Shown piece by piece: positions 14,829-31,973 of a stretch of 64,000 nt of DNA. Source of the DNA: Mesorhizobium sp. CAU 1732 (GTDB lineage: Bacteria > Pseudomonadota > Alphaproteobacteria > Rhizobiales > Rhizobiaceae); assembly GCF_039888675.1 (NCBI RefSeq), contig NZ_JBDQQR010000002.1, positions 348,001 through 412,000 on the forward strand. Direction: 5' to 3'. Within the stretch, counting starts at the first letter, position 1. Each line of letters opens with the position of its first letter. The notes beneath the pieces are model-generated. The model was not told the origin of the DNA and did no database searches. It was given only the letters and a program-made list of their open reading frames with translations. The position numbers and the translations under genes were made by a program.

Positions 14829-15632
14829 TCAGGCGTCGGGATCCGACGTCCGCATGCCGGGATACAGGCTCTTGAGCCCCTTGACGTTCTTTGCCAGGTA
14901 ATCCTGGCCGAGATGCAGCGCCACGCCCTCGTGCATGAGATGCGCGAATTCCTCCAGCCGCTTGCCGACCCGGAACCACGGACCAGCAACAGTCATCGCA
15001 AACGCGCGATCGCCGAACACGATCGGCACCGCGATGCCGCCCAGATCGGGCGTAAAGGCCGATGAACTCACGAACCAGCCGCGATTGAGCGACACGCGGA
15101 TGCTGTCCTCGACCGCTTCGATGCTCATCGGGCTGCCCTCGCCATAGCGTTTGAAGACAGCCTTGCGCAGCAGCGAGGTCTGCTGCGCCGGCGGCAACTG
15201 GCTCATGATCGCCTGCCCCGTCGCCGTGCCGTGCAAGGGAACGCGGGTCCCGACCTTGGCCGTATAGCGTACCGAGGCCTTGGACTCGATCACCTCCAGA
15301 AACACAGCGTGCTGGCCACTTTGCGCCGCGATCCAGACCGTCTCACCACTCTTCTGGGCAATGTCCTTGAGCAAGCTCAGGAGCGCTTCCGGCAGCGGTT
15401 CGGCGGCTGCCACTTCCTGCGCCAGCGTCAGCCAGCGCGGTGTCGGATAAAACCGCCCGCGCGCTTCCGGCTCGTAGAGAAAGCCGCGCGACACCAGCGT
15501 CGACAGGAGGTTGAACGTGCTGGAACGCGGCCAGCCGAAATGCTGCGACACCTCCGCAAGGCTCGCCGCCTTCTTCCGTTCGGCGAAGAACTCCAACAGT
15601 TCCAGAACGTTAACGACTTGCTTCACCAACAC
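14829..15632 (-). CDS. IclR-family transcriptional regulator
   Basis: This 267-residue regulator has an N-terminal winged helix (SLAEVSQHFGWPRSSTFNLLSTLVSRGFLYE, about residues 24-54). Its C-terminal effector-binding GAF-like domain shows the typical PLHGTATGQAIMSQLP and DDSIR-like segments (about 130-250). It probably controls the 12-gene operon downstream on the same strand and itself. The start is GTG at 15632, with GGAAGG 8 bases upstream; a TTG and another GTG follow within three codons. The effector is presumably an acid or CoA ester of the pathway. Confidence 0.9.
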   Translation of the reverse strand: MLVKQVVNVLELLEFFAERKKAASLAEVSQHFGWPRSSTFNLLSTLVSRGFLYEPEARGRFYPTPRWLTLAQEVAAAEPLPEALLSLLKDIAQKSGETVWIAAQSGQHAVFLEVIESKASVRYTAKVGTRVPLHGTATGQAIMSQLPPAQQTSLLRKAVFKRYGEGSPMSIEAVEDSIRVSLNRGWFVSSSAFTPDLGGIAVPIVFGDRAFAMTVAGPWFRVGKRLEEFAHLMHEGVALHLGQDYLAKNVKGLKSLYPGMRTSDPDA

Positions 15633-15720: not shown

Positions 15721-15744
15721 TATTGTCCACCTGAGTGGACAATA
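15721..15744. promoter_or_regulatory. Perfect palindrome upstream of iclR, probable autoregulatory operator
   Basis: The arms TATTGTCCAC and GTGGACAATA pair exactly around a 4-base centre (CTGA). The palindrome lies about 90 bases upstream of the iclR GTG. The TGTCCA half-site is the same as in the two sites upstream of the CoA-transferase gene, which is the pattern expected of an autoregulated IclR protein. Confidence 0.7.
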
Positions 15745-15810: not shown

Positions 15811-16815
15811 TCATCCCGCCGGCAGGATCAATTCCCTTCCGCCATCACGAGCACGCGGAGGCTTGCGCGGCGCTATCCCGACGCGGAGAAGATTGATCAG
15901 CCTGCGCTCGTCACCGATGCGGAAATGCGCCGCGCAGGCTGCGGCGGTTTCCGGATCGTCGGCCAGTGCCGCCATCGGCCAGGCCGCATAACCCAGATGG
16001 GCAAGCTCAAGCCACATGCGGTAGAATTCGCGGCCGGTCGCGATCGCAGGTTCGTCGTGGGGCCGGTGGAACAGCACGACCGCTGTCGATGACAGGGTCT
16101 TGCCGCGCTCGCCCAGCATCAATCCGGCGATGCGGGTTGCGTCAAGGATGCGGAAGAGCGGACCCGCCCCGAGCGCCAGCCGGGCCGCATGGCCCTCAAA
16201 CGTACTCAGACCCAGGGCCTCCAGATTGAGGCCGTCGCGGTCATAGTCAGGGTGAGATCGGATAAGCCGCATCCAGCCGACGAGCTCGGCGCGATAGTCG
16301 TCGTTGCGATAGAAGCGCAGGCTTGCTTCGTCATTGAGCCCGGCCAGCATCTCCAGATCGGCGCGTTCCGTGGCGAGCGCGACGTCGTCGCGGGCGGCCG
16401 CCCACGCCGCAAGCCCTTTCTTGGCGCTATCGCCTGCAGCTTCAAAACCAGCGCGCCATGTGAACCGGGCATCGACGGCCCACGAGAGCGAAGATGGCTC
16501 ACCGCCGTCGCGCGGGACGATGCTGGCGGCGGGTCGGAGGCCTTTCGCCGATGCCGATTGCCAGAGGTCTTCCACATGGATCGCGGAGACGCCGAGCTCA
16601 GCCAGCGCGATGATCGTGCCTTCGACCGCCGCGCCACAGGACACACCCGCGTCACGCCCGTGCGGATCGCCCACTTTCAGGAAGCGGCTTTCATCCGCAA
16701 GCACGGTGATCGTTCCGTCAGCCTCGAAACGCCAGCGCGCCGGCTGGGTGTTGTGCACCGAGGGCGCCAGATTGGCACGGCTGACGATGCGCTCCCGCGT
16801 CGCCTCATCCAGCAT
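15811..16815 (-). CDS. Acg-type nitroreductase-family flavoprotein
   Basis: This 334-residue protein of the nitroreductase fold resembles the large Acg/Rv2032-like branch. The opening RIVSRANLAPSVHNTQPARWRF carries the conserved APSxHNxQPW-like FMN-binding segment, but with Ala in place of the usual Trp. GAGVSCGAAVEG-like sequence (DAGVSCGAAVEGTIIALAELG) follows. The C-terminal half contains GLMLGERGKTLSSTAVVLF and REFYRMWLELAHLGYA. Acg-type proteins may sequester or use FMN; activity here is not known. It is the last gene of the six-gene operon and overlaps the preceding GNAT-like gene by 11 bases. Nitroreductase-like proteins recur near ThiF-like adenylating enzymes in peptide-modification clusters. 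Confidence 0.8.
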   Translation of the reverse strand: MLDEATRERIVSRANLAPSVHNTQPARWRFEADGTITVLADESRFLKVGDPHGRDAGVSCGAAVEGTIIALAELGVSAIHVEDLWQSASAKGLRPAASIVPRDGGEPSSLSWAVDARFTWRAGFEAAGDSAKKGLAAWAAARDDVALATERADLEMLAGLNDEASLRFYRNDDYRAELVGWMRLIRSHPDYDRDGLNLEALGLSTFEGHAARLALGAGPLFRILDATRIAGLMLGERGKTLSSTAVVLFHRPHDEPAIATGREFYRMWLELAHLGYAAWPMAALADDPETAAACAAHFRIGDERRLINLLRVGIAPRKPPRARDGGRELILPAG

Positions 16816-17923
16816 GGCGGAGGTCCTTGCGATAGAGATGGAGGCGATGCAGCGGACGCGCGCCGGCTTTCTCCGCCTGCCTGAGGCTCGCCTTGTTCAC
16901 ATCCGCGATCCATGTGCCGCCGACGGTCCTGTAGCCGGCTTTCTTCATCGCAGAGGCGACGTGCCAGAGCATCAGCGGATTGACGCCTTCGCCCTGATGC
17001 TCGGGCAGGACGCCCTGGAAGATGATCACCGCGCGGCGACGCGTCAGCCGGTATTTCAGATAGTGCCACGGGGTCGAAAGCCGCAGCCGCGCCCCGGTCG
17101 CCCGCACCAGCGGGTTCAGATCGGGTATGGCGATGATCGCGCCGATCGCCTCGCCCTTCCTTTCGAGGACCACCGAAATGCGCGGATCGATGATCGTCTT
17201 CATCTCGTTCGCCTGGAAGTCGAATTCCTCCTTCGTGACCGGCACGAACATCGGATTGTCGATGAAGGAGGCGTTGAGGATCGTCCGGGCATCCTCCATG
17301 CGCCGTTCCAGCGAACGGCGGTTGACGGGTGCAAAGGCATAGTCGCCGCTGGCGAGCAACGCCCGCTGCCTCGGGCCGAGAAGCATCTCGGGATCGGTCG
17401 TCGTCAGGTCGATCTCGATCGTGGTCATGGGAAATTCCGCGGTGTAGCCGGCTGTCTCGAGCAGCCGCTTCAGGTGCGGCGGGCTGTAGATCTGGTCGGT
17501 ATAGGGAGGATGCTCGTAGCCGTCGGTCAGCACACCCGCCTGCTGCATCGCCGTGAGGTTGAAATTGCCGGCGATCTCGCTGAAGCCGCGACTGCGCGCC
17601 CAATCTTCAGCGCTGGAAAGCAAGGCATTGGCCGCTTCCTGGTCGTCGGCACAGTCGAAATAGCCGAAGCAGGCGCGGCTCGTCCCATGAAGCTTGTTCG
17701 AGGCCGCATGGACATGGGCGGTTATTCTCCCGACCGGTCGGCCGTCGCGATGCGCCGTGAAGACGCTGATCTCGTCCCTGCTCGAAAACAGCGGGTTGGC
17801 GTCTGCCGAGAGGAAGCGTTGCAGATCGTTGCGCATCGGCGAGACGTAGAGCGTATCGGGACCATAAGCGACGAAGGGTGCCTCGAAGAACGCATCGAAA
17901 TCGCCTTTCCTAATGTCGATCAT
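16805..17923 (-). CDS. GNAT-like (YghO-type) protein, possible acyltransferase
   Basis: This 372-residue protein resembles the YghO-like group of large GNAT-fold proteins. The first module contains SVFTAHRDGRPVGRITAHVH followed by FGYFDCADDQEAANALLSSAEDWARSRG, with a likely substrate pocket GNFNLT. A second GNAT-like module at about 255-370 has AIGAIIAIPDLNP, then IFQGVLPEHQGEGVNPLMLWH, a degenerate acetyl-CoA-binding loop, and WIADVNKASLRQAEKAGARPLHRLHLYRK. The donor and acceptor are unknown. It overlaps the membrane-protein gene by 14 bases and the nitroreductase gene by 11, so all three must be made together. Confidence 0.72.
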   Translation of the reverse strand: MIDIRKGDFDAFFEAPFVAYGPDTLYVSPMRNDLQRFLSADANPLFSSRDEISVFTAHRDGRPVGRITAHVHAASNKLHGTSRACFGYFDCADDQEAANALLSSAEDWARSRGFSEIAGNFNLTAMQQAGVLTDGYEHPPYTDQIYSPPHLKRLLETAGYTAEFPMTTIEIDLTTTDPEMLLGPRQRALLASGDYAFAPVNRRSLERRMEDARTILNASFIDNPMFVPVTKEEFDFQANEMKTIIDPRISVVLERKGEAIGAIIAIPDLNPLVRATGARLRLSTPWHYLKYRLTRRRAVIIFQGVLPEHQGEGVNPLMLWHVASAMKKAGYRTVGGTWIADVNKASLRQAEKAGARPLHRLHLYRKDLRHAG

Positions 17924-19118
17924 GGCCTCTCTCCGAGATCAGCAGCGCCACGCGCTGGACCGCGCGCAGCTCGGTTTCCGCGCCGGGCGTGGCGGCGAGC
18001 GCGGGCATGTTCAGCGCCACCAGCGTCAAGGGTTCGCGCGAGACCAGCATCAGATGCGTTACCTCGTAACGCTCGAAGATCGCCTGAAGCTGCTCGATCC
18101 CCGGCTGTTTCGGCGTCTGCTTGCGTATCTCCCCGACATGGCGCACCGGATCGGCGGCGAAGACGGTTTCGAGTTCCGCCGTGTCGAATTCTGAGAGGTC
18201 GGAGGGCTCCAGCATCAGCGCGCCTTCCACCAGCATATGCTCGCGCAGACCGCTCAGGAACGCGGCGGCGTCGGTCTCGCTGCCATAGGCGATGTGGGTG
18301 AGCAGGCTGTCGCGACGCTCTTCCGCGCCGAGATTCATGGCGTCGATGAAGATCGCCGCGACCAGCGCGGCGCACAGGGCGAGCGCGACCGATTGCACCA
18401 TGCCGGCGAAATCCAGCCCCGCAATCGCGCCGATGCCGATGCCGCCGATGACGGCCGAAACGACCAGCACCGCGAACGCCTTCACCGTATCGCGGTGGCC
18501 GAGGCTGCTGCGGCCCGCGCCCACCACGAGCCAGCAGATGAAGAGGATGGCGATGCCCGCCATGCGAACCGGCAATTGCGATCCGTCGAAGCGGAAATCG
18601 GTGACGAGAAACGGCAGGATCAGAAGCAGCGACAGCGCGATCCGATCGGTCAGCCAGTTCTCGCGCGGGGACAGCGAGGCACGGTCGCGCGTCACCACCA
18701 TCCAGCCAGCGGCAAGGAAACCGGCAAACTGGAAGGCGAGCAGCCCATAGGAGCGAAATGGCTCCACCAGCGCGATCGGCAGGAAGGCCAGCACGGTAAA
18801 CAGTGCGGTTCCGGCCAGGAGCCCGTATTTGACGAGAGGCGGCGCGTGGCGGCGCAAAAGCCCCTCCGCGAGCACGACGGCCGCGAGCGGGATCAGCCCT
18901 GCCGAGATGTACATCACCGGCAGGAAGAGGGAGTTCTCCGTGATCCACCACAGGAGCCGCCCAGTCAGAAGCACGATCAGCACGATGAGGCCGAGCTGGA
19001 AGCGTCCCGTCAGAGCGTCAGCGGGGCCGGAACGGCGCAGCACGCCGAACAGAACCAGCAGCCCGACGATCGCCGCCAGCGTCACGAGGCTGTCCGCGAT
19101 GAGATGAGCCTGCGTCAT
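17910..19118 (-). CDS. Polytopic membrane protein with soluble C-terminal domain, function unknown
   Basis: This 402-residue protein is not one I recognise. Residues about 5-265 contain eight or nine hydrophobic segments, for example LVTLAAIVGLLVLFGVL, LGLIVLIVLLTG, YGLLAFQFAGFLAAGWMVV and FAVLVVSAVIGGIGIGAIAG. The remaining 135 residues are soluble and acidic, with LQAIFERYEVTHLMLVSREPLTLVALNMPAL. It would anchor or transport for the operon in the inner membrane. It starts 3 bases after the ThiF-like gene stop and overlaps the next gene by 14 bases. Confidence 0.75.
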   Translation of the reverse strand: MTQAHLIADSLVTLAAIVGLLVLFGVLRRSGPADALTGRFQLGLIVLIVLLTGRLLWWITENSLFLPVMYISAGLIPLAAVVLAEGLLRRHAPPLVKYGLLAGTALFTVLAFLPIALVEPFRSYGLLAFQFAGFLAAGWMVVTRDRASLSPRENWLTDRIALSLLLILPFLVTDFRFDGSQLPVRMAGIAILFICWLVVGAGRSSLGHRDTVKAFAVLVVSAVIGGIGIGAIAGLDFAGMVQSVALALCAALVAAIFIDAMNLGAEERRDSLLTHIAYGSETDAAAFLSGLREHMLVEGALMLEPSDLSEFDTAELETVFAADPVRHVGEIRKQTPKQPGIEQLQAIFERYEVTHLMLVSREPLTLVALNMPALAATPGAETELRAVQRVALLISERGHDRH

Positions 19119-19121
19119 CGC

Positions 19122-20006
19122 TCAGGCCGTCAGCTTCGTAAGGAAGCGCCGCACGACCGGGCGCAGCAGAGCGGCTGTCAGGACATTGCGGGGTCGCTCC
19201 ACGCGGCCGCGATACGGGTTGAAGAACCAGCCCCGTTCGTCCGTATCGGTTTTCTCGCCAAGCAACAGCGCGATCGTCTCATAGGCCATCAGCATGCCGG
19301 TCGTGATGACCATCGGCGCGAACGACATGCGGCTGCGCTTGCCAGCCGCGACCTCACCCGCGAGTTCGAGGTTCACATGATGACGCGAAGAGGAATGAAG
19401 GACCACATGCTCGGCCTCGCGGAGGAAAGCTTCCTTCCGCTGTGCGTCCGAAACGGCGTTCCACGCAGTGCCGATCGTGGGGTAGCCGAGGCGCTCCTCC
19501 GGCATCGGCCGGCCGGGCCGTGTGACATAGACCGACGGCAGCGGCGAAGCGTAGGCGTCGATCACCGGTTTTCCGAGCCGGCGCGCGGTGCGGTAGAGCA
19601 ACAGCGAGGCCGCGAGGTCGTCGGTGCCGTTCACCACCACGTCGCATTGCCCGACGATTACGTCGACATGGTCCGCCCACTGGTCCTTGTGGACCGTGAT
19701 ATCCAGCTCCGGATTGATGGTGAGGCACTGGTCGCGCGTCGCCTCGGCCTTGTGCTGCCCTACCGTATCCAGATTGGCGAAGACCTGCCGGTTGAGATTG
19801 GAGATCTCGAACGCGTCGAGATCGGCCAGCACCAGATGCCCGACGCCAGCGCGTGCAAGCGCCAGCACGCAGGCCCCGCCCATTCCGCCCGTGCCACAGA
19901 CGAAGACGCGCGCACCGCGCAGCCTCTCCTGCTGCTCGGCGGTGATGAAGCCGATGTTGCGCGTCGTGAACTCGGCATAGCTGAACGCCTGCTTCACCGC
20001 CCCCAT
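19122..20006 (-). CDS. ThiF/MoeB/E1-like adenylating enzyme without visible catalytic Cys or zinc knuckle
   Basis: This is a 294-residue E1-superfamily protein. The ATP-binding loop CGTGGMGG is at 37-44 and the acidic/arginine motif DLDAFEISNLNRQ at 62-74 includes D62, D64, N70, R73 and Q74. Lys86 and the pair Asp129-Asp130 (NGTDD) follow. These are the adenylation residues of ThiF, MoeB and MccB. The four cysteines all lie at or before residue 121, so neither the downstream thioester cysteine nor the CxxC zinc pairs of many E1 relatives are present. It probably adenylates a carboxylate, perhaps a peptide or carrier-protein C-terminus, but no ubiquitin-like partner is encoded nearby. ATG at 20006 was chosen for its GGGGAGGG site; an ATG at 20024 lacks one. 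Confidence 0.83.
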   Translation of the reverse strand: MGAVKQAFSYAEFTTRNIGFITAEQQERLRGARVFVCGTGGMGGACVLALARAGVGHLVLADLDAFEISNLNRQVFANLDTVGQHKAEATRDQCLTINPELDITVHKDQWADHVDVIVGQCDVVVNGTDDLAASLLLYRTARRLGKPVIDAYASPLPSVYVTRPGRPMPEERLGYPTIGTAWNAVSDAQRKEAFLREAEHVVLHSSSRHHVNLELAGEVAAGKRSRMSFAPMVITTGMLMAYETIALLLGEKTDTDERGWFFNPYRGRVERPRNVLTAALLRPVVRRFLTKLTA

Positions 20007-20944
20007 GGTCGCAGCCCTCCCCATTGCCGGCTGGAATCCAGCCAGTAGATCAGCGGCAGAATCAGGCCCTGAAGACCGATCAGCCCCGCCGACAAAAGCA
20101 GATGGCGCAGGGATTCGCGCGGTACCGATTCCGTCAGATATTTGCGCGCCGCGTTGAGATCCATCTGCCCAAGCTGGAGCAGGTCGTCGCCCCGCTCGTA
20201 ATCGAGCATGTCGCGGCAGAACGCGTTGTAGCTTTCGTCGCGATGCCCGGCCGCTTCCTCGAAACTCTTCTTCAGCCCGTCCGAGCCGCCCGTATAGGCG
20301 TTGGTGATGACGAAGCGATCTTCCTCGAAGCCGGCATCCTCTCCGACGCCGAAGACGTGGCGGTGGCCGCGCATGATCTGCCGCGCCAGCAGCACATGGG
20401 CGAAGCTGCGCCGATCCTGCGCCTGCGGCGCGGGATAGACGTTGGAGAAATTCTGCGTGACGAGGCCGATGACGGCCGGCACTTGCGTGACGTTCGATAT
20501 CCAGAAAGGCCGAAGCTGGTTGCGGATGAAGATGAGTAAGCAGGTCAGGCCGTAGAGAACCCAGGAAAGCCCCTGGCTGCGCTGTCCCGGATCGACCATG
20601 ACCAGCCCAAGATGCACCACCTCCTGCGGCCTGCCGTTAAGCGAGAGGTTCATCACCGCGAGCGCGTTGAACGCGATCGGAACCTGCTCCTTGCGGCTGT
20701 AGACGATCGTGACGATGCTGTCCTTCAGCCGCGAGCGGTCGGCCGAGAAGATGCCGTAGGTCAGGTCCTCGCCCGACAGGCTGGCCGAGGCGACGCGCTT
20801 CAGGTCCTCCCTCAGCGCCTCGATGTCGCGATCCTCCATCCATATGCCCGGCCGCTCGACGATGCGCGTCTCGATACCCTTGCCGACGCGCATCCTGACG
20901 TCGAGATGGTCCTGGGTCAGCGATTTCAGCCAGACGCCGAGCAT
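19994..20944 (-). CDS. GNAT-like protein with C-terminal membrane anchor
   Basis: This 316-residue protein is of uncertain family. The region 88-135 resembles a GNAT core: a strand (PIAFNALAVMNLSL), then VHLGLVMVDPGQRSQGLSWVLYG, where VDPGQRSQGLS looks like the acetyl-CoA pyrophosphate loop. A single strongly hydrophobic segment near 281-302 (LLSAGLIGLQGLILPLIYWL) suggests tail anchoring to the membrane. It could be an N-acyl- or N-acetyltransferase. It starts 4 bases after the P450 stop and overlaps the ThiF-like gene by 13 bases. I do not recognise a characterised homologue. Confidence 0.68.
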   Translation of the reverse strand: MLGVWLKSLTQDHLDVRMRVGKGIETRIVERPGIWMEDRDIEALREDLKRVASASLSGEDLTYGIFSADRSRLKDSIVTIVYSRKEQVPIAFNALAVMNLSLNGRPQEVVHLGLVMVDPGQRSQGLSWVLYGLTCLLIFIRNQLRPFWISNVTQVPAVIGLVTQNFSNVYPAPQAQDRRSFAHVLLARQIMRGHRHVFGVGEDAGFEEDRFVITNAYTGGSDGLKKSFEEAAGHRDESYNAFCRDMLDYERGDDLLQLGQMDLNAARKYLTESVPRESLRHLLLSAGLIGLQGLILPLIYWLDSSRQWGGLRPWGR

Positions 20945-20948
20945 GTGC

Positions 20949-22313
20949 TCACCTCCGTGCCGGCTCGACGAAGAGCGGCATGCCGCCTTTCGGCCGCAGC
21001 GTGATGGAGAATTGCGGATAGATACGGTGCGCGGGATCGGGCGTGAAGCGCACGCGCCGTATCAGCGTCGCCAGCAGGATCGCCGCCTCCATCTGCGCCA
21101 GCTTCATGCCGATGCAGATGCGCCCGCCGCCGCCGAACGGCATATAGGCGAACCGGTGCCGCCCTTTCGCATTTTCTTCACGGAAGCGATCAGGATCGAA
21201 AAGGCCAGGGTCGGACCAGTGCTTGCGATGCCGGTGCAACACATAGACCGCCACCGTCACGTGATCGTCCTCGTCGATATCCATGTCACCCAGCCTCGTA
21301 TCCACGACTGCCGTCCGGCCCACTGCAGCCGCCGGGGGATAGAGCCGCATCGTTTCCTGCACGACGCGGTTGGTGAGATCGAGCTTCTCGGCATGCACCG
21401 CCGTCACGGGGCCCTCGCCGCAGATGTCGTGTGCCTCGCGGGCGAGCGCTTCCTGGAGGTCGGGCCGGTGCGCCAGGATCGACAGCGCCCAGGTGACGGC
21501 CAGAGCCGTCGTCTCGTGGCCGGCGCCGATGAAGGTGAGGATGTTGTCGATCACCTCCTCCGTCGATAGCGCTTCGCCGGTTTCGGGATCGCGCGCGAGC
21601 GTCAGCAGGGCAGCAAGGTCGGGCCGGTCCTCGCCCAGTTCGCGCGGCGCGTCGATGACGTCGCGCGCGGCCTGCCGAAGCCTGCCGATCGCGGTGCGGC
21701 CGCGATGGCGGGTCCGCGGAAACCATTCGGGAAACCCGAAATAGTCGAAGAGATCGAGATTGCCGTGCGTCTCGAAATAGGTGGTGATGTCGCGCGAGAT
21801 CGCATCGCGGTCGTAGATGTCGCCCGGATCGCCGAACAGCGCCTCCACGATGATGTCGAGCGTGCCGGCCACCAGCTCGTGCAGGATGTCGATGCGCGAA
21901 CCCGGTTCGAGCGCTGCGAGCCTTGCGGCCGTCTCCTCGCCGATCGCCGCCATCGAGGGGGCGAGCGCGGCGATCTTCTCGTGGCGGAAGACCGGCGCGG
22001 CGGCCCGGCGCTGCGCGCGCCAGCTCTCGCCTTCGGCCGTCAGCAGCCCGTTGCCCATGGCGGGCTTCAAAAGCCGATTCACGAAGCGTGACTTGATGTA
22101 GGAGCCGGCATCGTCGAGCAGCACCGTCTTGGCCAATTCCGGGTCGGTGACGGTGATGAATTTCTGTCCCGGCAGCCGCATGACGCTGAGCTGGCTGTCG
22201 AACATGTCGTCCGACCAGAGCTCGAGCGGATTGCGCACCACGGCCGCAAGCCCGCGAAGCGTACCGAGCGGTCGTGAGGGCGGTGGAACGGTTGGGGGAT
22301 AAAGAGCGATCAA
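20949..22313 (-). CDS. Cytochrome P450
   Basis: This is a soluble-type bacterial P450 of about 454 residues. The I-helix oxygen-activation motif FIGAGHETTALAV, the K-helix ETMR and the haem-binding loop FGGGGRICIG with ligand Cys400 are all present. An unusually glutamine- and arginine-rich I-helix region is absent, so it should be catalytically normal. No ATG fits the expected length. TTG at 22313 (TTG ATC GCT CTT) gives a normal proline-rich N-terminus (YPPTVPPPSRPLG), whereas the longer frame to 22622 is arginine-rich and overlaps the sortase gene antisense-like. It heads the six-gene operon. The substrate is unknown; no ferredoxin gene is adjacent. Confidence 0.88.
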   Translation of the reverse strand: MIALYPPTVPPPSRPLGTLRGLAAVVRNPLELWSDDMFDSQLSVMRLPGQKFITVTDPELAKTVLLDDAGSYIKSRFVNRLLKPAMGNGLLTAEGESWRAQRRAAAPVFRHEKIAALAPSMAAIGEETAARLAALEPGSRIDILHELVAGTLDIIVEALFGDPGDIYDRDAISRDITTYFETHGNLDLFDYFGFPEWFPRTRHRGRTAIGRLRQAARDVIDAPRELGEDRPDLAALLTLARDPETGEALSTEEVIDNILTFIGAGHETTALAVTWALSILAHRPDLQEALAREAHDICGEGPVTAVHAEKLDLTNRVVQETMRLYPPAAAVGRTAVVDTRLGDMDIDEDDHVTVAVYVLHRHRKHWSDPGLFDPDRFREENAKGRHRFAYMPFGGGGRICIGMKLAQMEAAILLATLIRRVRFTPDPAHRIYPQFSITLRPKGGMPLFVEPARR

Positions 22314-26328: not shown

Positions 26329-27207
26329 CTAAGCGGCGAAGGTTATCTGCTCCTGGGAGGAATTGATGACCTCGAGATTGTCGATGAGACGGGTATCGCC
26401 GAGCCAGGCCGCGACGAGCAGGCGCGCGGGCCGATCCAGCCCGCCGAGTGGCGCGAGGTCGTCCGCAGCCCGCAATTCCAGATACTCGACGCTGTCGAAG
26501 CCCGCCGCCAGGATGGCGGCCTTCGCTTCGTCGAGCGTAGCCGTCACGGGCGCGTGGTTCGCGAGACGGCGCGCCGTCGCAACCAGCACGTCCGCGAGCC
26601 TCGGCGCGATGACGCGCTCTGAGGGCGACAGCCGCACATTGCGCGACGAAAGCGCCAGCCCGTCCGCCTCGCGCACGGTCGGGCAGGCGACGATCTCGAC
26701 GGACAAGTCGAGATCGCACGCCATGCGCCGGACCACCTGGAGCTGCTGGAAATCCTTCTCGCCGAAGAAGGCCATGTCCGCGCCTGTCTGGAGGAACAGC
26801 TTGGCGACGACGGTCGAGACCCCGTCGAAGTGACCCGGCCGGAACGCGCCGCATAGCCCATCGCTGACTCCGGTCACGGATACGGTCGTGGCGAAGCCCT
26901 GCGGGTAGATCTGCTCCGCGTCCGGCACGTAGAGCATATGCGCACCGAGCGGAGCGAGCTTCGCCGCATCGTCGTCCTCGGTGCGGGGATAAGCGGCGAG
27001 GTCCGCCGCGCTGTTGAACTGTTTTGGGTTGACGAACAAGGTGACGATGACCCGGTCGGCGCGGCCAAGTGCTGTACGCACGAGGCTCAGATGGCCCTCA
27101 TGCAGAGCGCCCATGGTCGGCACCACTGCTATGGTGGCGCCTTCGCGCCGCCAGCCGGCGACCGTGGAGCGAAGCCCGGCCAGGGTGCGGACGATAGGAA
27201 CGCTCAT
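26329..27207 (-). CDS. panC: Pantothenate synthetase
   Basis: This enzyme condenses pantoate and beta-alanine with ATP to give pantothenate in coenzyme A synthesis. It has 292 residues, the normal length. The ATP-binding signature [14 protein letters not shown] is at 30-43 with the HIGH-like [20 protein letters not shown], the pantoate-site region [15 protein letters not shown] and [11 protein letters not shown] follow. The ATG overlaps the panB stop as ATGA, so the two are translationally coupled. All catalytic signatures appear intact. Confidence 0.97.
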
Positions 27208-28049
27208 GCCGCGCCTCCCCTGGCGACCGCCTTGGGCATATCGCCGAACACATGCTCGGCAGCGGGAAACCGACGAGCGCGCACATCGGCCGCATAGGCA
27301 GCGATCGCCTTGGCCGCCTCCGCGCCCAGTTCCGCGTAGCGCCGGACGAACTTGGGGCGGAAATCGGTGAAAGCGCCGAGCATATCGTCCACGACGAGGA
27401 TCTGGCCGTCACACGCCTGCGACGCACCGATGCCGATCGTCGGCGCTGCAATCTCGCCGGTAATCCGGCGGGCCAGCGGCTCCGGCACCTTTTCCAGCAC
27501 CACGGCGAAAGCGCCGGCCTCCGCTACGGCAGCCGCATCGCGCGCAACGCGCTCGCTGTCCTCGCCGCGTCCTTGCACGGCATAGCCGCCGAAGGCGTTG
27601 ACGGCCTGCGGGGTGAGGCCGACATGCCCCATGACCGGCACGCCACGCGTCGCGAGGAAACGAATAGTCCCGGCCATCGGCTCGCCGCCTTCGAGCTTGA
27701 CCGCAGCGCAGCCGGTCTCTGCCATGAGGCGGGCGGCGTTGCGGAACGCCTGTTCCCGGCTTTCCTCGTAGGAGCCGAACGGCATGTCGACGACCATGAG
27801 CGCGCGCTCGAGCCCGCGCCTCACCGCCTGGCCGTGCATGATCATCATGTCGAGCGTGACGCCGAGCGTGGATGGCAGGCCGTGCAGAACCATGCCGACG
27901 CTGTCGCCGACAAGCACCACGTCGCAATGCGCATCGACCAGCTTCGCCATCGGTGTCGTGTAGGCGGTCAGGCAGACCAGCGGCGTTCCGCCCTTGGACT
28001 TAGCCACCTGCGGCGGTGTCAACGCCGGATTCTTCCCGGTTACGCTCAC
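27204..28049 (-). CDS. panB: Ketopantoate hydroxymethyltransferase
   Basis: This enzyme makes ketopantoate from ketoisovalerate and methylenetetrahydrofolate, the first committed pantothenate step. It has 281 residues. Signatures are [32 protein letters not shown], with metal-binding Asp residues, [31 protein letters not shown] and the catalytic-glutamate segment [15 protein letters not shown] chose the GTG at 28049 ([10 protein letters not shown]) because GGGAGGA precedes it by 6 bases; the longer ATG frame from 28094 would bury that site. It leads the two-gene pan operon. Confidence 0.97.
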
Positions 28050-28100
28050 CTGCGATCCTCCCTCAAGCGCGCCTGCTGCATCTTTATGTGGCATACTTTC

Positions 28101-28114
28101 TTCGCAAATGCGAA
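28101..28114. promoter_or_regulatory. Inverted repeat in the panB upstream region
   Basis: TTCGCA and TGCGAA pair perfectly around AA, about 52 bases upstream of the panB GTG. A further TGCGAA lies at 28130-28135. It sits where the panBC promoter should be and could be an operator. The rest of 28050-28250 shows no gene and contains the end region of the ABC transporter operon. Confidence 0.35.
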
Positions 28115-28250
28115 CCGCAAGTGTGCATCTGCGAACAAGCCACGCCTCCGGCGGCGTCGCGCGCTTTCATCGGTCATCGGGATCACTTCTCGTGCCATCG
28201 CCGCCACCGCAGGGGGAGACAGCAAGGCCAGGCCTATCCCGGCCCAGGCA

Positions 28251-29210
28251 TCAGTCCCGCAGCAGGCGGACCTTGTGGTTCGGCCCGATATCCACGAGCT
28301 CCGACGCCTCAGGCGGCGAGAACACGTTCGGCGCCATGCTGCCATCGGAGCCGAAACGCCAGCCCGGCGGGGCGGCCGGCCGGGTCACCTCGGTCGCCTT
28401 GCGGGCGAGTCCAAGAGCGGCATCCGGATCGGGAATCGCGTCGATCAGGCGCCTTGTATAGGGGTGTTGCGGATTCTCGAATATCTCCTTCCAGCCGCCC
28501 TGTTCGACGATCTGGCTGAAGAACATCACCAACACCCGGTCGCTCATGTGCTCGACCACCGACAGATCGTGCGAGATCATCACATAGGACAGGCCGAACT
28601 CGTCCTGCAAATCCAGGAGCAGGTTGATGATCTGCGCCCGGATCGACACGTCCAGCGCGGAAACGGGCTCGTCCAGCACCACGATCTCTGGTTCGAGGAT
28701 CAGCGCCCGGGCAATGCCGATCCGCTGCCGCTGCCCCCCTGAAAATTCATGCGGATACCGCCCGCCCTGCTCGGCGGTCAGGCCAACGCTCCTGAGCATG
28801 GCGGCGATGCGGTCGGCGGCTTCGGAACCGGTTATCCCGTGCAGTTTGAGGGGCTGGGTCAGCGACGCGTTCACCGTCTGACGCGGGTTGAGGCTGGCAT
28901 AGGGGTCCTGGAAGACCATTTGCGCGGCTTTGGCGCGGGCCATGCGGCTCGGCGCGCCCGGACCCGCGATCGGCCTGCCCTTGAAGCGGATCGCGCCTTC
29001 GGTGGGCTCCTGAAGACCCATGATGGACAGCGCCGTGGTGGACTTGCCGCAGCCGGATTCACCCACGATGGACAGGCACTCGCCCTTGGCGAGCGAGAAG
29101 CTTACGTCGGTCACCGCATAAAGCGTCCGCTTTCCCGAGCCCAATATGCCGCCTCCCGAGATCGGAAAGCGGACGTGGAGGTTGTCGACCTCGAGGATTG
29201 GCGCGCTCAC
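28251..29210 (-). CDS. Dipeptide/oligopeptide ABC transporter ATP-binding protein (DppF/OppF type)
   Basis: This is the second ATPase of the peptide importer, 319 residues. Walker A is GESGCGKST, the signature is FSGGQRQRIGIARAL and Walker B with its glutamate is IVVLDEPVSALD. The C-terminal oligopeptide-transporter extension is present (NPQHPYTRRLIDAIP). The GTG start ([13 protein letters not shown]) overlaps the preceding ATPase gene stop as GTGA, and the opening matches its partner's [13 protein letters not shown]. It ends the leftward transporter operon. The extension lacks the usual CxxxC pair of iron-sulfur-binding relatives. Confidence 0.94.
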   Translation of the reverse strand: MSAPILEVDNLHVRFPISGGGILGSGKRTLYAVTDVSFSLAKGECLSIVGESGCGKSTTALSIMGLQEPTEGAIRFKGRPIAGPGAPSRMARAKAAQMVFQDPYASLNPRQTVNASLTQPLKLHGITGSEAADRIAAMLRSVGLTAEQGGRYPHEFSGGQRQRIGIARALILEPEIVVLDEPVSALDVSIRAQIINLLLDLQDEFGLSYVMISHDLSVVEHMSDRVLVMFFSQIVEQGGWKEIFENPQHPYTRRLIDAIPDPDAALGLARKATEVTRPAAPPGWRFGSDGSMAPNVFSPPEASELVDIGPNHKVRLLRD

Positions 29211-30115
29211 ACCGGCGCTCCTTCCCCGCGCGGGCTGATGAAGCGCGTCTGTGTCAGCGTCGACCGGTCGGCGACGATGCTGTCGATATCCACCAGCCGA
29301 TGCCTTCCATGGGTCGAGCGGCTGCCGAGGCGCGGCAGCGCTCCCAAGAGTCCGCGCGTGTATTCGTGCTGCGGATTGGAGAACAGCGCCTCGGTCCAGT
29401 TCTCCTCGACCAGCGCCCCGGAATACATCACGCCCACGCGCTGGCAGGTCGATGCGATGACGCCGAGATCGTGGCTGATGAACAGCACCGCAGTGCCGCG
29501 TTCGGTACAAAGCTCCTTGATCAACCGCAGCACCTCGGCCTGAACCGTCACGTCGAGCGCGGTGGTCGGCTCGTCCGCGATCAGCAGGTCAGGATCGCAG
29601 GCCATTGCCATGGCGATCATCACGCGCTGGCGCAGCCCGCCCGACATCTGGTGCGGATAGTTTTTAGCCCGCCGGTCGGGATTGGGCACGCGCACATTCG
29701 CCAGCGCCTCGATCGCCAGTTTCTCGCCTTCCGCCCACGACTTGCCCTGATGCAGGTAGAACATCTCGGCGATCTGCCGTCCTACAGTCACCAGTGGGTT
29801 GAGCGCCGTCATCGGCTCCTGGAAGATCATCGCGATGCGGTCGCCGCGCAGCTTGCGCATGTGCCGCTTCGAAAGCTTCAGCAAATCGTTTCCCTGGAAC
29901 AGGATTTCCCCCGCGGTCGCGCGCAAGGGCTTTTTCAGCAGGCCCATGGTGGCCAGCGAAGTCACAGACTTGCCCGAGCCCGACTCGCCCACGAGCCCGA
30001 ACGCCTCGCCGGGCATGATCTGGAACGAAACCCCTTGCAGGATCGGGAATGACTTGCCGCCTCCCAGGGGCAGGCCGACGTGAAGGTCTTTCACCTCGAG
30101 AAGCGGAGCACTCAT
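29207..30115 (-). CDS. Dipeptide/oligopeptide ABC transporter ATP-binding protein (DppD/OppD type)
   Basis: This is the first ATPase of the importer, 302 residues. Walker A is GESGSGKSV, the signature [15 protein letters not shown] and Walker [13 protein letters not shown], followed by [11 protein letters not shown] long open frame continues far upstream, but [13 protein letters not shown] at 30115 overlaps the permease stop as ATGA and is the real start. It pairs with the DppF-type protein to energise peptide uptake. Confidence 0.94.
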
Positions 30116-30933
30116 ACCTTGCGCGTCCTCATATGGGGGTCGAGACTGTCCCGCAGGCCGTCGCCCAGAAGGTTGAACCCCAGCACGGACAGGAAGATGG
30201 CCAGGCCGGGGAAGATGGCGACCCAGGGAGCGAGCTGGATCATTTCGCGCGCATCGGTCAGCATCGAACCCCAGGACGGGAACGGCGGCTGGATGCCGAG
30301 GCCGAGAAAGCTGAGCGCCGCCTCCGACAGCACCGCCCCGCCCATGCCGAGCGTCGCCATGACGAGGATCGGGCCCATCATGTTGGGCAATATCTGGGTG
30401 AACATGATGCGCAAATCGGAATAGCCGAGCGACTGCGCGGCCAGCACATAGCCCTGAGACTTGAGCGAGAGCGTGGATGACCGGGCGATGCGGCAGGTCC
30501 AGCTCCAGTTGGTCAGGCCGAGCGCGATCAGCAGCGACACGAGGCCGGGACCGAGAACGGCCATCACCGCCAGTGCGAAGATCAGCGAGGGGATGGCAAG
30601 CATGACGTTGGTCAGGCCGTTCACGAGGTCGTCCCACCAGCCGCCCCAATAGCCGGCCGTCATGCCGAGCGTCACGCCGATGAGCGAATTGATGACCTGC
30701 GAGACGATCCCGACAGTCAGCGAGATTTGGGCGCCGTAGAGAATGCGGGAATAGACGTCCCTGCCCTGGCTGTCGGTGCCGAACCAGAACTCGCCATCCG
30801 GCGGCAGTTCCGCGTTCATCAGGTTCGCGCCCAGGACCGGGTCGAAGGGGGCCAGCCAAGGGGCAAGGATACCGGCAAGGACGACCAGAACGGTCAGAAA
30901 GCCGCCGAAAACGAGGTTGAAGCCAAGACGCAT
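30112..30933 (-). CDS. Dipeptide ABC transporter permease (DppC type)
   Basis: This 273-residue inner-membrane permease belongs to the binding-protein-dependent type. It has an N-terminal helix (LVFGGFLTVLVVLAGILAPWLAPFDP), the periplasmic segment GTDSQGRDVYSRILYGAQISL typical of DppC/OppC, and the EAA-like coupling loop AAQSLGYSDLRIMFTQILPN. It overlaps the ATPase gene by 4 bases and lies 6 bases after the DppB-type gene. Confidence 0.95.
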   Translation of the reverse strand: MRLGFNLVFGGFLTVLVVLAGILAPWLAPFDPVLGANLMNAELPPDGEFWFGTDSQGRDVYSRILYGAQISLTVGIVSQVINSLIGVTLGMTAGYWGGWWDDLVNGLTNVMLAIPSLIFALAVMAVLGPGLVSLLIALGLTNWSWTCRIARSSTLSLKSQGYVLAAQSLGYSDLRIMFTQILPNMMGPILVMATLGMGGAVLSEAALSFLGLGIQPPFPSWGSMLTDAREMIQLAPWVAIFPGLAIFLSVLGFNLLGDGLRDSLDPHMRTRKV

Positions 30934-30939
30934 CGCCGC

Positions 30940-31875
30940 TCACTCCTGCTTGATGCGCGGATCGATGGCTGCATAGAGCAGATCGACGACGGTGTTGATG
31001 ACGAGGAACCACAAAACGATGACGAGGATCGTGCCCTGGACCACGGGTATGTCGCGGATCGCCACGCTGTCGACCAGCAGCGATCCGATGCCGGGCCAGG
31101 CGAACAGCTTTTCGATGACCACGGCCTGACCGATCAGCGAACCGAATTGCAGGCCGACGGTGGTCACGATCAGCACCAGCGCGTTGCGGGCGACATGACG
31201 GCGCACGACGGCCCCCTCGCTCATGCCCTTGGAATGGGCGGTGCGGATGAAGTCCGAATTCATCACGTCCAGAACGCCGGCGCGGGTGGTGCGCGCCAAA
31301 AGAGCCAGCGGCGTCACGCCGAGAGTCACGGCGGGCAGGATCAGGTTGCGGAACGACCCGCCGCCGTAACCGAAGCTCGGCAGCCAGTTCAGGTGCAGCG
31401 CAAACAACAGCATCATCAGCAGGCCCAGCCAGAACTGCGGCAGGGACAGGCCCGAGACGGCGCCGATCATCGTGACGGTGTCGAGGATCGAGCCGGGACG
31501 CAGGGCGGCCATGAAGCCGAGCGGCACGCCGATCGCGATGGCGAAGACCATGGCGGCGGCGGCCAGTTCCAATGACGCCCAGATGCGCTCGTTGATCATC
31601 TGGATCACCGGCAGACGGGTGCGGAAGGATGTGCCGAGATCGAACCGCGCAAGGTCCCACAGATAGGTGAAGAACCGCTCGTGCAACGGCTTGTCGAGGC
31701 CGAATTCGGCTGTCAGCCGGGCGATGAGTTGCGGATCGGCACTGGTGCGGCCGTCCGAGAAGAGGCTGGCGGCGAAGCTGCCGGGAACGACACTGAAGAT
31801 CACGAAGATCAGCAGGGCGACGACGATCACTGTCGGGATGATCTGGAGAATGCGTCGAAGCGCAAAACGTAGCAT
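30940..31875 (-). CDS. Dipeptide ABC transporter permease (DppB type)
   Basis: This 311-residue permease partners the DppC-type subunit. Family features are the opening MLRFALRRILQIIPTVIVVALLIFVIFSVVPG, the periplasmic region with GLDKPLHERFFTYLWDLARFDLGTSF, and the coupling loop RTAHSKGMSEGAVVRRHVARNA. A conserved end KLFAWPGIGSLLVDSVAIRDIPVVQG is also present. It is separated from the binding-protein gene by a 111-base gap holding a long perfect hairpin. Confidence 0.95.
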   Translation of the reverse strand: MLRFALRRILQIIPTVIVVALLIFVIFSVVPGSFAASLFSDGRTSADPQLIARLTAEFGLDKPLHERFFTYLWDLARFDLGTSFRTRLPVIQMINERIWASLELAAAAMVFAIAIGVPLGFMAALRPGSILDTVTMIGAVSGLSLPQFWLGLLMMLLFALHLNWLPSFGYGGGSFRNLILPAVTLGVTPLALLARTTRAGVLDVMNSDFIRTAHSKGMSEGAVVRRHVARNALVLIVTTVGLQFGSLIGQAVVIEKLFAWPGIGSLLVDSVAIRDIPVVQGTILVIVLWFLVINTVVDLLYAAIDPRIKQE

Positions 31876-31946
31876 GGACGGGTCCCGGTTCAGGCCGCTT
31901 GGGGTGTTGGAGGCGGCGACTATCCCGCGAACGGATCCGAGGGCAG

Positions 31947-31973
31947 TCCACGAGGGGAACGTCCCCTCGTGGA
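31947..31973 (-). terminator. Strong hairpin between the binding-protein and permease genes
   Basis: A 12-base perfect stem (TCCACGAGGGGA pairing with TCCCCTCGTGGA) closes a 3-base ACG loop, 14 bases after the stop of the binding-protein gene. No T run follows, so it is more likely an RNA-stabilising or partial-termination hairpin. Such hairpins keep binding-protein mRNA more abundant than permease mRNA. Confidence 0.65.

Follow-up and report, generated by a model that had tools for sequence, protein, structure and literature searches.

What could be made by six tightly packed genes for a cytochrome P450, two GNAT-type proteins, a ThiF-like enzyme, a membrane protein and a nitroreductase-like protein in Mesorhizobium sp. 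CAU 1732? The genes lie at 15811..22313 of a 64,000-nucleotide stretch of DNA, hereafter the window (contig NZ_JBDQQR010000002.1, positions 348,001 to 412,000). They form six open reading frames, all on the minus strand, which we lettered A (P450), B (membrane-tethered GNAT-fold protein), C (ThiF), D (membrane protein), E (GNAT) and F (nitroreductase). With the start of C at 20006, neighboring frames are separated by 3–4 bases or overlap by 11–14 bases, in agreement with the dense leftward packing described in an earlier prediction from the letters of this DNA (the original prediction). Pfam gives a clear family for A, C and E and a weak one for F, and neither Pfam nor NCBIfam provides a family for B and D. 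Comparative analysis revealed that the unit is real and conserved, and that it has a mechanistic counterpart in acyl-oxazolone synthesis. We propose that B-C-D-E-F constitute a pathway, associated with the membrane, for an N-acylated lipid derived from an amino acid, which would work like acyl-oxazolone synthesis with other parts; we put the probability of this reading at about 0.55.

The gene content, order and nesting of the operon, as well as the folds and families of its proteins, are direct observations. B has 2663 homologs. A profile of 22 B proteins led to 289 encoding stretches (one genome per species), the best 80 of which were kept and analyzed for gene content by tblastn with all six window proteins. 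These 80 loci belong to Alphaproteobacteria of many families and one Lysobacter. In every one of them B and D are present, the genes lie on one strand and the order B-C-D-E-F is kept, so that conservation of the order reaches well beyond close relatives, a point on which the original prediction had been made to depend. Furthermore, for each of the ten gene pairs the pairwise distances are correlated (r 0.31–0.76 for 24 loci plus the window; none of 2000 permutations as high), a correlation that could also stem from shared species history. A random local arrangement was rejected given the kept order and these correlations. The loci fall into nested gene sets, namely BCDEF (35), BD (24), BCDF (16), BCD (3, two of them cut by contig ends) and BDF (2); the BCDEF count includes L025, with short remnants only of C and E, and L041, with broken frames. 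Of the 56 loci having C or F, 51 have both, and E is found exclusively alongside the two (35/35). In the 24 genomes with B-D only, a close C is encoded elsewhere in one (2e-158) and in none of the other 23, the next best match being 2.4e-29. On a tree of 77 B proteins, from which four of the 80 loci were left out (L025, L041, L073 and L080), the B-D-only label needs six changes. Thus, C, E and F were gained or lost several times, with B and D staying adjacent. The occurrence is patchy: of 384 further genomes from the class, 2 have B, as do 11 of 393 from the family, and 39 relatives, seven of them of the same genus, all lack a close C. C is also carried by ten plasmid records of Ensifer, Shinella and Rhizobium.

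The genome of Yoonia sp. F2084L has a B-D locus without C and a full-length C at a separate site (L083 and L182). In a Mesorhizobium locus (L025, 9951-11876), C and E are reduced to short pieces and F is incomplete next to intact-looking B and D, an apparent recent decay of the C/E/F module. At L124 (6828-11121), a divergent D-B pair, with B 41% identical, is accompanied by a HAMP-SpoIIE phosphatase gene transcribed away from the pair.

The P450 does not share in this conservation. No P450 gene was found next to the operon in the 80 loci or in 11 family relatives (flanks up to about 9 kb, contig ends included), and we therefore rejected it as a member of the system. The conserved unit is B-D or B-F instead of the six genes originally grouped together. 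The closest solved chains of A are a putative P450, plant LUT5 and CYP3A, with CYP4B1 and CYP102 lower in the list; A was added locally and may hydroxylate the acyl chain or ring.

The original prediction had seen no obvious known counterpart; one is provided by acyl-oxazolone lipids, which follow the same logic. According to two reports, they are made by an acyltransferase, a ThiF cyclase and a nitroreductase-fold oxidase in TyzACB and TrzAS from mycobacteria and Rhodococcus, and in OxzAB from Pseudoalteromonas (PMC10404671, PMC12856293). Rv1355c is TrzS, a ThiF-oxidase fusion that cyclizes and desaturates N-acyl-tryptophan once TrzA has performed the acylation (PMC12856293), and TyzACB carries out the same reaction series with tyrosine (PMC12856293, PMC10404671). 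The physiological role of oxazolones is termed unresolved in PMC12856293, and these compounds undergo hydrolysis according to the same paper. In our analysis, C and F align to separate parts of the same curated ThiF-nitroreductase models, NF005901 (the Rv1355c family) and NF011424. Seven loci were fetched for the ThiFs nearest that fusion, and an acyltransferase scores over the TIGR03694 cut-off in five, weakly in one and not at all in one. The acyltransferases of these loci (L125-L131) match PF13444/FeeM, whereas B and E do not. In the gammaproteobacterial L130 (198-3012), a TIGR03694 FeeM-like acyltransferase, a PRK08223-type ThiF and an Rv1355c/Acg-type oxidase are encoded consecutively, making it a candidate three-gene oxazolone cluster. 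Fused ThiF-oxidase proteins did not appear over the NF011425 cut-off in 299 genomes (best matches cover the ThiF part), nor with NF005901 at E<=1e-30 in 200 genomes; as the latter search found none in the controls either, this absence shows little. The operon as a unit had no description that we found in the openly licensed PMC literature.

The ThiF-like enzyme C retains the residues for adenylation. The glycine loop, D68, D70, R79, Q80, K92 and D135 of the ATP site are invariant in 25 aligned sequences, and no invariant cysteine is seen among them. In all 20 C sequences compared, a model of acyltransferase-linked ThiFs beats a MoeB-type model by 7–32 bits, the former reference having seven members, labeled as such in this analysis and including no TyzB, OxzB or TrzS. 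The MoeB-type set came from 20 of 24 loci, candidates longer than 330 residues or without a match being left out. Asn78 is common to C and the acyltransferase-linked ThiFs. Given the missing invariant cysteine and the separate clade, a MoeB/ThiF enzyme acting with a sulfur carrier is disfavored for C.

These data enabled us to propose a putative order of steps, in which the substrate, product and activities are predictions. Initially, the GNAT-fold protein B, tethered by its tail helix, would move a fatty acyl group from acyl-coenzyme A or an acylated acyl carrier protein onto an amine that bears a carboxylate. D, which always accompanies B, may bind, sense or move the product at the membrane; where B and D stand alone, the acyl product of B would be the end product. 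Afterwards, as its family suggests, C would adenylate the carboxylate with ATP and close a ring or couple the product, using no thioester cysteine. F, a predicted flavin mononucleotide oxidoreductase, would then desaturate the product. Finally, E, a relative of bacterial ceramide synthase, would add a second acyl chain or serve an alternative substrate. Acylation, adenylation with cyclization, and desaturation are the best explanation because of the fused models, the FeeM-like acyltransferases near kindred ThiFs, and the identity of TrzS with Rv1355c. The nesting of gene sets fits such a pathway, since B-D would make an acyl product, C and F would act jointly, and E would depend on them. The original proposal of a unit that synthesizes an amino-acid-like conjugate and is held at the membrane by B and D is hence retained as the likeliest reading, shorn of its six-gene extent and its lack of a counterpart.

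Several observations weigh against this pathway. F, assigned by its sequence to the nitroreductase/FDO family, has Acg (2ymv) as its best solved relative, and scores 141.5 bits with NF047509, below the cut-off of 199, and 46.5 bits with the Rv1355c family model. All 23 F sequences score higher with an Acg/Rv3131-type (B) model than with an oxazolone-type (FDO-A) model, the window protein at 106 against 24.5 bits. By this comparison, F belongs to the Acg/Rv3131 branch and not to FDO-A, the latter being represented by a single subtype made up of 22 proteins related to the L130 oxidase (all in the model, every second one in the tree). In PMC10404671, the B-branch oxidases of the organism studied are not near its oxazolone genes. 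PF13444/FeeM is unmatched by 22 B proteins and by the window E. C forms its own clade, merely 7–32 bits nearer the acyltransferase-linked ThiFs than MoeB. B-D occurs without the other genes in 24 of the 80 loci, so the ThiF and the oxidase are not the heart of the system. Of the genes that adjoin the operon in other loci (see below), PspA, YiaAB and LplT-Aas are missing in the window, and RoxA-like and TetR genes are likewise not near its operon; the sole Aas-like gene of the genome sits elsewhere beside housekeeping genes, and such genes also occur without the operon. Because of the branch of F, the lack of a FeeM match for B and E and the small lead of C, we describe the pathway as working like oxazolone synthesis and do not call it an oxazolone cluster. 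A plain oxazolone cluster was not accepted, as F is of another subfamily and both acyltransferases appear to be so. The match to a characterized pathway, which the original prediction had named as its refutation, is thus confined to the acyl-oxazolone logic.

B and D are two conserved families, both labeled 'hypothetical protein' in public records. B is modeled with a GNAT fold, carries a long insert that is conserved, and has a hydrophobic helix at its C terminus. FeeM or LuxI is not among its fold matches, a lack that says little about FeeM kinship. D comprises a small alpha/beta domain in addition to its seven to eight helices, and structure comparison weakly suggests a bundle like that of G-protein-coupled receptors. 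An AdipoR/PAQR-like ceramidase was set aside as a reading of D, for which there was a single weak Foldseek match (AdipoR2, E 0.12). Another explanation is a synthase-receptor pair, in which an acyl signal from B would be received or sensed by the seven-helix protein D and diversified by C, F and E; we regard this explanation as rather improbable. As a long shot, B-D could be the core of an undescribed bacterial lipid-signal system, in which a membrane-tethered N-acyltransferase is paired one-to-one with a receptor-like protein recognizing its product, and a C/F/E module that is gained and lost yields cyclic or doubly acylated variants. If so, lineages would have different chemical dialects.

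The fold matches of B are protein acetyltransferases such as GCN5 and NatD, which could speak for protein or peptide modification by the GNATs, the ThiF and the oxidase. Azole-peptide systems, moreover, pair E1-like and nitroreductase-fold enzymes. However, GNAT fold matches are unspecific, and the conserved order holds no recurring gene for YcaO, a precursor or a ubiquitin-like protein (proteins of about 90 residues or more). According to PMC12856293, the substrate of the fused relative TrzS is a free N-acyl amino acid, and we consider protein or peptide modification highly improbable.

E aligns with Escherichia coli YghO at 26% identity over 376 columns (E=6e-38). Two reports place the bacterial ceramide synthase (bCerS)/YghO family at N-acylation in dihydroceramide synthesis (PMC9386255, PMC11087976), and YghO is listed alongside the Caulobacter acyltransferase CC_1154 (PMC9386255). 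In an unrooted tree, 24 E proteins and 12 YghO/bCerS proteins occupy the two sides of one 100/100 branch; the latter are YghO and 11 of 13 fetched relatives, L177 and L181 being left out for want of a matching open reading frame. Thus, E is not inside the bCerS/YghO clade and represents a distant sister subfamily. In an E. coli record, yghO adjoins serine palmitoyltransferase (spt), acp, epimerase and fatty acyl-AMP ligase genes, and in 6 of the 13 fetched loci the YghO relative has Spt nearby. Neither serine palmitoyltransferase nor CerR is encoded in the window; among 91 operon loci, one has an Spt-like match in its vicinity (L053, 33%) and one a CerR-like match. A ceramide operon was rejected, given this near-absence and the position of E outside the clade.

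The kinship of E to ceramide synthase also bears on membrane-lipid remodeling, in which B and E would be N-acyltransferases of a structural aminolipid, D a flippase or scaffold, and the ThiF and oxidase would alter the head group, with PspA, YiaAB and LplT-Aas in the same envelope response. Among the 80 loci, PspA/IM30 (24), YiaAB (23), TetR (23) and an LplT-Aas fusion (17) are neighbors in two arrangements; these counts are lower bounds, owing to automatic gene picking, and public annotation confirms a unit adjoining such neighbors. The neighbors favor membrane or envelope lipid work. Yet PspA, YiaAB and LplT-Aas were rejected as obligatory partners, since they are missing from many loci (e.g. 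Rhodobacterales) and from the window, and LplT-Aas is found without the operon; membrane-lipid remodeling is an arguable but unlikely explanation. No Aas-like gene matched at E<=1e-100 in seven same-genus genomes. A RoxA-like cytochrome c gene adjoins the operon in 17 of the 80 loci, on the opposite strand after F (L045-L070, L022-L086), and a 'c-type cytochrome' is annotated beside the operon on a Rhizobium plasmid.

Table 1. Operon genes in the window
Gene	Product	Position	Strand	Evidence
A	Cytochrome P450, local addition upstream of the core	20949..22313	-	PF00067 2.3e-74
B	Membrane-tethered GNAT-fold protein, unnamed family, core	19994..20944	-	modeled GNAT fold
C	ThiF/E1-like adenylating enzyme, proposed cyclase	19122..20006	-	PF00899 1.7e-39
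D	Seven-to-eight-helix membrane protein with C-terminal alpha/beta domain, core partner of B	17910..19118	-	
E	GNAT N-acyltransferase, sister subfamily of bacterial ceramide synthase/YghO	16805..17923	-	YghO alignment, tree
F	Nitroreductase-superfamily flavin oxidoreductase, Acg/Rv3131 branch	15811..16815	-	NF047509 4e-41

Around the operon, a perfect 10-base inverted repeat (15721-15744, arms 4 bases apart) lies between F and an IclR-type regulator gene (14829-15632), upstream of the latter, and is likely an operator. Directly upstream of the P450 (22432-25619) are a class GN sortase and a VIT/VWA target protein, both above NCBIfam cut-offs. Farther on (26329-31951), panC/panB-like and peptide ABC transporter-like genes were judged by eye from translations. 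The window contains no tRNA gene, and a promoter/terminator scan of it was uninformative (1 and 2 sites, against 1.0 and 5.0 expected).

The nested sets, B-D, then C and F, then E, offer a genetic test of the order of steps. Natural B-D, B-C-D-F and B-C-D-E-F versions in harmless soil and marine strains would make the physiological role of oxazolones testable.

In comparison with known systems, the operon resembles the acyl-oxazolone systems (Oxz/Tyz/Trz) in having an N-acyltransferase, a ThiF-like ATP-dependent cyclase and a nitroreductase-superfamily oxidase in one cluster, with the adenylation residues kept. It differs in the Acg/Rv3131 branch of its oxidase, the apparently different families of its acyltransferases, an extra seven-helix protein and second acyltransferase, and the existence of a B-D form without cyclase and oxidase. 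The PEP-CTERM/exosortase-linked acyltransferase loci (TIGR03694, FeeM-like) are reminiscent of it through L130, where an acyltransferase of this type is encoded next to a ThiF and an oxidase, all three consecutively; in contrast, B has no NCBIfam match at all and E none of this kind. With the MoeB/ThiF sulfur-carrier adenylating enzymes, C has the superfamily and the ATP site in common, but it forms a separate clade without any invariant cysteine. The homology of E to bCerS/YghO spans the entire protein. Of 37 positions with strong conservation on each side, 23 are shared and 14 are swapped, and E sits on a separate clade with a long branch.

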